Source: Chloroflexota bacterium
GTDB lineage: Bacteria; Chloroflexota; Dehalococcoidia; Bin125
Assembly (NCBI GenBank): GCA_009838915.1
Contig: VXQT01000034.1
Span: 1-37,885 of the forward strand
DNA: 37,885 nucleotides
Direction of reading: 5' to 3'
Shown: one piece after another, positions 110 to 1,144 of the stretch
Position numbering within the stretch: the stretch's first letter is position 1
Layout: each line of letters starts with the position of its first letter
Translations under genes and position numbers: made by a program
Notes under the pieces: generated by a model
Database searches by the model: none
Seen by the model: the letters and a program-made list of their open reading frames with translations, nothing else
What the model was told of the DNA's origin: nothing

Positions 110-1144
110 ATGACTCGCCCGATCCTGGCCGTCGCGTTCGGCGTATGCGCGATGGCTGTAGCAGTGCTGGCGCTGGTCGGCAGCGCCTCGATCTCCGTCG
201 CCCAGGACGCGGACACCGTCCAGGTCCGAGCCAGGCTCCAGGCTTCTGGTTCGATTGAGTTTGCCCTGCGCGCCGACGGGAAGAACCTGGTGCCCAGGGC
301 GCGCCGATTTCCTGCCGGCGACCGAGCCACAGGATGGCTGTTCAGCTCCCCGTTGAAGCTGGGCAACGGCGCAGAGGTGCAGATCATGGCGCGACGGCAC
401 GAGAACCGCCGCGTCGAGTTCGCTGTTCGCACCGTCGAGCCGCGCAAGGTGTTTGCGCCGCGCGGTCGATTCTTCCCCGCCAACGCCAGGGTCGGTGTCT
501 GGCTGATCAGCACTCCCGTGAGCATCCCGCCCCCGCCCGAGCCCGTGGCCGAGTCGCAGACCCCAGAGAGTCCCGAACAGTCAGGCGACTCCAGTGAGAG
601 CGTCGAACGAATCTCAGGCGGGAAGCGTGACGGCGTCATCGTGAATGGCAGCATCCTTGGCGATCCTGACGCGCCGGTCCTAATCGTCGAGTACGGTGAT
701 CCGTTTTGACCGAACTGCAGAACCATCGCGACTCAGGTTGAGCCGCGACTGATCGACGAGTACGTCCGCACAGGAATCGCCAGGTTCCAGTTTGTCAACA
801 TCGCCTATGTCGGAGTCGCCTCCGAACGGGTTGGCTACGCAATGGTCTGCGCGACTCAGCAGAGCGGCGCATCGTTCTGGCGCTTTCACGACCGCTTCCT
901 GGTCGAGAACAGCCGCGCCGCATCGCGAGCGCAACTGATCGAGTATGCAGGTGAGATCGGTCTCGACTCCGACGACTTCACTGAGTGCTACGACGATCCC
1001 GAGACCCGCCGGACGCACGATCAGATCGTCAACGACGCTCGGGACATCGGTATCACCTACGGTCCACGAGTTCATGTCAACGGAGCCAGCGCAGGCACTT
1101 CGTTTGAGGCGATCCGACGCGCCGTCGAAGCCGCGACTCCCTGA
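110..1144 (+). CDS. Secreted DsbA-like thioredoxin-fold protein, candidate selenoprotein (TGA 707-709 read as Sec)
   Basis: Residues 1-32 form a signal peptide or membrane anchor. Residues about 45-140 hold two copies of an unrecognised module with the pattern [IV]EFA[LV]R...R.R.FPA..R.G.WL.S.P. A Pro/Glu/Ser linker follows, then a DsbA-family thioredoxin fold. The frame has a single TGA, codon 200, inside EYGDPF-U-PNCR. This is exactly the first position of the CxxC redox motif, and the second Cys (203) is intact. From 710 to the TGA at 1142 the frame stays open and encodes typical DsbA features: a helical insert with FWRFHDRFL, then YGPRV with Pro319 at the cis-Pro position. A SECIS-like hairpin follows at 726-748. 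The likely role is an extracytoplasmic thiol oxidoreductase. Other genes here use TGA as stop, so the code is not generally reassigned. The alternatives are a nonsense mutation or a sequencing error. If TGA is a stop, the product is a 199-residue protein lacking the thioredoxin fold. Confidence 0.75.
726..748 (+). promoter_or_regulatory. Bacterial SECIS-like hairpin downstream of the in-frame UGA
   Basis: TCGCG-A-CTCA, loop GGT, TGAG-C-CGCGA: nine base pairs with one A/C mismatch and a three-base apical loop beginning GG. The loop starts 26 nt after the UGA. Bacterial SECIS elements lie within the coding sequence just after UGA, with an apical loop roughly 16-37 nt downstream and a conserved G (often GU) in the loop for SelB. 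This hairpin meets those rules by eye; no folding energy was computed. Confidence 0.65.

Follow-up and report, generated by a model that had tools for sequence, protein, structure and literature searches.

The gene at positions 110-1144 of a 37,885-nucleotide stretch of Chloroflexota DNA (the window, i.e., the whole stretch analyzed) encodes, with a probability that we place at roughly 95%, an exported selenoprotein in which the UGA at codon 200 would be translated as selenocysteine (Sec) through a downstream hairpin and SelB, giving a selenol/thiol oxidoreductase of the DsbA/BdbD fold. What looks like a stop codon in mid-gene is very likely read as Sec in a predicted exported disulfide-handling enzyme. 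The conserved UGA, the SECIS, the Sec machinery, the fold family and the export signal come directly from sequence and comparison; Sec insertion itself, the redox chemistry and its direction we infer. In the proposed mechanism, the ribosome would reach UGA at codon 200, SelB carrying Sec-tRNA(UCA) would bind the hairpin at 726-748, and Sec would be inserted to give a 344-aa protein rather than a 199-aa fragment. The product would then be exported via its signal sequence, without a lipobox, and work outside the membrane, with Sec as the attacking nucleophile and Cys203 as the resolving residue (UPNC). The features concerned are as follows.

110-1144, + strand: predicted selenoprotein gene, exported, Thioredoxin_4/DsbA-like, 344 aa, Sec at residue 200 (translation with TGA as U; PF13462; 13 genus orthologues with TGA)
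110-208, + strand: hydrophobic N-terminal signal sequence of about 33 aa, no lipobox by eye (read from the sequence, MTRPILAVAFGVCAMAVAVLALVGSASISVAQD)
209-547, + strand: beta-rich module, residues 34-146, two ~50-aa repeats, no Pfam family (AlphaFold2 pLDDT 88; recurs in L119-L122)
647-1129, + strand: Thioredoxin_4/DsbA-like catalytic domain (PF13462; Bacillus BdbD nearest in PDB)
707-709, + strand: in-frame UGA, putatively Sec, first residue of UPNC (TGA in genus homologues; class relatives that are not of the family have Cys here)
726-748, + strand: predicted bacterial SECIS, a 9-bp hairpin interrupted by one A.C mismatch and capped by a GGU triloop (736-738) (fold; covariation in 64 sequences; frozen wobble positions; RNA-model matches)
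L124 (G000:C24:22895-23836), - strand, same genome: selD with an in-frame TGA, ARCGG-U-GSKFG (sequence)
L119:3041-3913, L120:2479-3474, L121:72-4700 and L122:1653-4244, same genome: further carriers of the beta-rich module (sequence matches)

Conservation of the in-frame UGA

Translation showed that the frame has exactly one internal stop, TGA 707-709 (codon 200, in the context EYGDPF-U-PNCR), as a preliminary description of this DNA had stated, and that its own terminator, at 1142-1144, is also TGA. GC3 is much alike on either side of the internal TGA (0.78 and 0.73). The preliminary description went on to argue from this one sequence that a chance nonsense mutation was unlikely to fall here. 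That argument is weak, because single-TGA frames are common in the GC-rich window (13 long frames, open for 120 codons or more both before and after the TGA) and the hairpin is within chance: an equally long hairpin follows 76 of the 1016 TGAs in the window (7.5%; both strands, any frame), and the MFE z-score of the hairpin, -0.42, shows no stability beyond chance by itself. The claim is therefore carried by comparison. Two minor features lie near the start of the gene: a 13-bp inverted repeat with a GAAT loop at 64-93, just before the start codon, which is terminator-like with no clear T run, and the stretches of C and of G with which the contig opens (1-30), probably an assembly-end artefact.

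All 13 orthologues found have TGA at the identical codon, at protein identities of 45-73% and in separately assembled genomes, and the orthologue sits within a conserved gene block in 13 of 15 genus genomes. A tandem cluster of three to four paralogues occurs in 14 genus genomes (47 paralogues in total, with TGA at the same place); their motifs are UPxC, UGxC or similar and a lipobox is apparent in most. In the 12 genus genomes with PF13462 matches, each match contains exactly one TGA, and in none does Cys take its place; no Cys version of the family was found in the genus. Homologues have either Cys or Sec at the column of residue 200, with Cys in class relatives outside the family, which, together with the domain match, agrees with the earlier proposal that the TGA occupies the position of the first Cys of a DsbA-like redox motif. 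In a tree, members from the genus and family formed an all-Sec clade and other families of the class mixed Sec and Cys, with just four usable Cys rows and changes of the Sec/Cys label poorly resolved. Across the class, Thioredoxin_4 proteins (L024, L026, L032 and others) likewise include Sec and Cys forms, and the Sec forms outside the family have different downstream hairpins. A contig scan for relatives recovered two genus relatives only, both public MAGs, and a search of plasmids returned merely distant thioredoxin-domain matches (<60% identity).

The genome itself contains four family members. Three tandem Sec lipoprotein-like genes lie near a contig end at L071:6407-9214 (G000:C9).

The downstream hairpin, the Sec machinery and alternative readings

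A bacterial SECIS is a hairpin within the coding region downstream of the UGA, with a small apical loop that contains G (PMC1088965), and this is what was found at 726-748, shortly 3' of the UGA. The hairpin, UCGCG-A-CUCA-GGU-UGAG-C-CGCGA (core 728-746), has 9 bp, begins after 16 nt and has its GGU loop after 26 nt, all as previously described; the earlier account did not mention that the 9 bp fall into two runs (5+4) around an A.C mismatch. This position also lacks a standard pair in 18 other aligned sequences.

To this hairpin we aligned 64 sequences, 60 from the genus and four from the same family. Of the hairpin cells, 93.9% were paired, compared with 27-39% when one side was slid by 1-3, and the covariation score was 0.119 vs. 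0.058 in shuffles, a value reached by 0 of 500 shuffles. Compensatory pairs occur at 27-35 (UA/CG/GC) and 29-33 (AU/GC). At pair 27-35, where the amino acid changes from Glu to Gly or Ala, a third codon position on the opposite side of the stem changes to match, and selection on the protein offers no account of this. Covariation is limited in extent, with changes on both sides at three pairs, and that measure alone was reached by 19 of 500 shuffles. Third-codon entropy in the orthologue hairpins is 0 in five of six codons and 0.44 in the sixth; across 46 of the 47 paralogues, it is 0-0.49 in the hairpin codons. Many neighboring codons lie at ~1-1.7. The downstream hairpin is conserved as RNA. 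An RNA covariance model (R1) gave 60 matches with E<1e-10, spread over 14 of the 15 genus genomes and including four in the genome under study (C31:707 and three in C9), and the next best match was at 1.5e-3; the 60 sites also built the model, so that the gap describes a SECIS type restricted to the family and is not independent proof. As some 60 naturally occurring SECIS variants at constant spacing, the sites are a resource for studies of recognition by SelB.

The preliminary description had named the Sec machinery as one test of its reading, and the genome contains all of it: selA (528 bits), selB (320 bits), selD (350 bits, with an in-frame TGA) and tRNA-Sec (70.8 bits, anticodon TCA, i.e., UCA). 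Searches of the window with Rfam (gathering cutoff) and for tRNAs found nothing, the machinery being located elsewhere in the genome. Conserved TGA, conserved RNA hairpin and Sec machinery together support the view, put forward at the outset, of a putative exported, Sec-containing thiol oxidoreductase. One genus member, G003, is the sole one without the family; it also has neither selD nor tRNA-Sec over the cutoff and keeps selB. Considering that this assembly is 89% complete and in 470 contigs, its profile would fit either a lineage that recently gave up selenium or an incomplete MAG.

If the TGA were a nonsense mutation or a sequencing artefact in an ordinary Cys gene, the chance abundance of single-TGA frames in the window and the insignificance of the hairpin alone would fit. 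However, separate genome assemblies agree on a TGA at this codon even where identity falls to 45%, the downstream frame and hairpin are kept, and the wobble positions of the hairpin are constrained, so a pseudogene or error is scarcely credible. Recoding of the UGA to Trp or Cys, whether across the genome or through a specific tRNA, is very improbable: although a UGA tRNA that inserts Cys would suit an in-frame TGA at a Cys position too, the recoded sites are tied to a downstream SECIS, and tRNA-Sec(UCA), SelA, SelB and SelD are present, selD with a TGA as well. Genome-wide recoding is further disfavored because the gene itself ends in TGA, at which orthologue homology also stops.

The UGA might also be a real stop, with a 199-aa exported beta-module protein as the product and readthrough as an occasional event or a selenium-dependent switch. 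Such a truncated product could fold, given that other predicted secreted proteins have the module and lack this thioredoxin domain, but the downstream thioredoxin domain is strongly conserved across the genus, and the tandem paralogues, whose UGA comes after 66-194 codons, show no match to the module; we regard this alternative as unlikely. Under low selenium, a dual product (199 aa and full length) may be made.

Domain architecture and known relatives

Residues 180-340 match PF13462 (Thioredoxin_4) with 70.3 bits (E 2.9e-19), above the gathering threshold of 23.2 bits, and the match to PF01323 (DSBA) is weaker (26 bits). The closest solved structure, by both profile and fold, is B. subtilis BdbD (PDB 3eu3/3eu4; profile E 1.4e-12; VIA-align Z 10.5, rmsd 3.6, 161 aligned); BdbD is a Cys enzyme, whereas the window protein would carry Sec. 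Residues 144-336 also match NF041057, the Rcas_1661 family thioredoxin-like (seleno)lipoprotein, with 116.1 bits (E 1.9e-33), below the curated cutoff of 190 bits, which was exceeded in no class genome searched. Rcas is a locus prefix of Roseiflexus (Chloroflexota). Like that family, the window protein has a Thioredoxin_4-type domain, a Sec-first UxxC motif and a predicted export signal; it differs in lacking a lipobox, in carrying an additional beta module at the N terminus and in having Gly rather than Thr before the cis-Pro. This Gly (YGPR and similar) is found in 11 of 13 orthologues and Thr in other members, including the two earliest-branching orthologues, which retain it.

Selenoproteins of this kind have been described before. 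A 2026 review lists 119 prokaryotic selenoprotein families or subfamilies, including DsbG-like (UxxC; NF041057 in its Table 1) and DsbA-like (UxxC) proteins (PMC13188914), both of which date from 2005-2006 (PMC1088965, PMC1794560). Sargasso Sea DNA is the reported source of DsbA-like protein form 1, a UxxC selenoprotein of PF01323 (PMC1088965); it shares with the window protein a DsbA-like fold, UxxC and a SECIS whose small apical loop contains G, but the window protein fits PF13462 better than PF01323 and belongs to a different subfamily. By these comparisons, the window protein is a divergent new member of the already known UxxC selenoproteins, below the NF041057 cutoff and with a domain architecture of its own. 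The preliminary description therefore made the right call in its reading, but the gene is not solitary, as one of four family members in its genome, and its kind was already known. A literature text search, with subscription journals outside its coverage, found no paper pairing SAR202 with a selenoprotein, and among papers pairing Chloroflexota with selenocysteine none appears, from titles and abstracts, to describe these selenoproteins. The gene adds a well-supported predicted selenoprotein lineage for Chloroflexota related to apparently sponge-derived MAGs; sets of sponge MAGs that include Chloroflexota are available (PMC8163846). Standard annotation would truncate the gene at 709 or break it into two.

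For the N-terminal module, Pfam returned no hit even with the cutoff relaxed to E<1, and a PDB fold search with its predicted structure gave no clear match (best Foldseek E 0.3); SlaA was rejected as a fold relative, its VIA-align Z of 6.5 being within the chance range. The duplicated module recurs in predicted secreted proteins of the genus, at either the N or the C terminus, beside thioredoxin-like and repeat domains. Carriers in the genome under study include L120, by eye a thioredoxin protein of TlpA-like type, and the large repeat proteins L121 and L122.

Gene context and possible redox role

Across the genus, the conserved block around the window gene comprises a luciferase-like monooxygenase upstream (in relatives) and two glyoxalases and two SDRs downstream; considered as a hint to function, it gives none. 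The genes flanking the tandem cluster encode a conserved DUF885 protein and a 680-aa protein that matches no Pfam family, and no redox partner was found among them. BdbD acts with a DsbB-type membrane partner. Searches of the genus genomes detected no VKOR; 81 of 393 class genomes have one, and in several class relatives it adjoins a Thioredoxin_4 gene of the Cys or Sec form. Every genus genome searched has a transmembrane protein of the CcdA/DsbD type. Since the genus yielded the CcdA/DsbD-type protein but no VKOR, a role as reductase or isomerase is slightly favored over that of a DsbA-like oxidase. A broader scheme, which we offer tentatively and hold to be rather doubtful, is that the exported DsbA-like proteins of the genus have become fixed as selenoproteins and expanded (four to five per genome) into a selenium-dependent extracytoplasmic reductase/isomerase system that is reduced by the CcdA/DsbD-type protein and does without VKOR, with the beta module of the window subfamily binding substrate or surface. 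With Sec predicted in every detected PF13462 protein, several of them in tandem, the genus offers a good natural setting in which to ask why selenium is favored in thiol chemistry outside the cytoplasm.

A separate observation concerns VKOR itself. In another family of the same class, a VKOR gene (G026:C216) has an in-frame TGA (L129:1825-1827) at its catalytic CxxC (AIUPWCVAE), where other VKORs of the class have Cys. A Sec-VKOR has no entry among the 119 in the published table (PMC13188914). The form occurs in one of the 81 VKOR-bearing class genomes, the only genome of its order compared, and sequencing error may lie behind the TGA. This candidate Sec-VKOR gene is directly 3' of a Sec Thioredoxin_4 gene, and its TGA is followed by a strong hairpin able to put GGUC in the loop.
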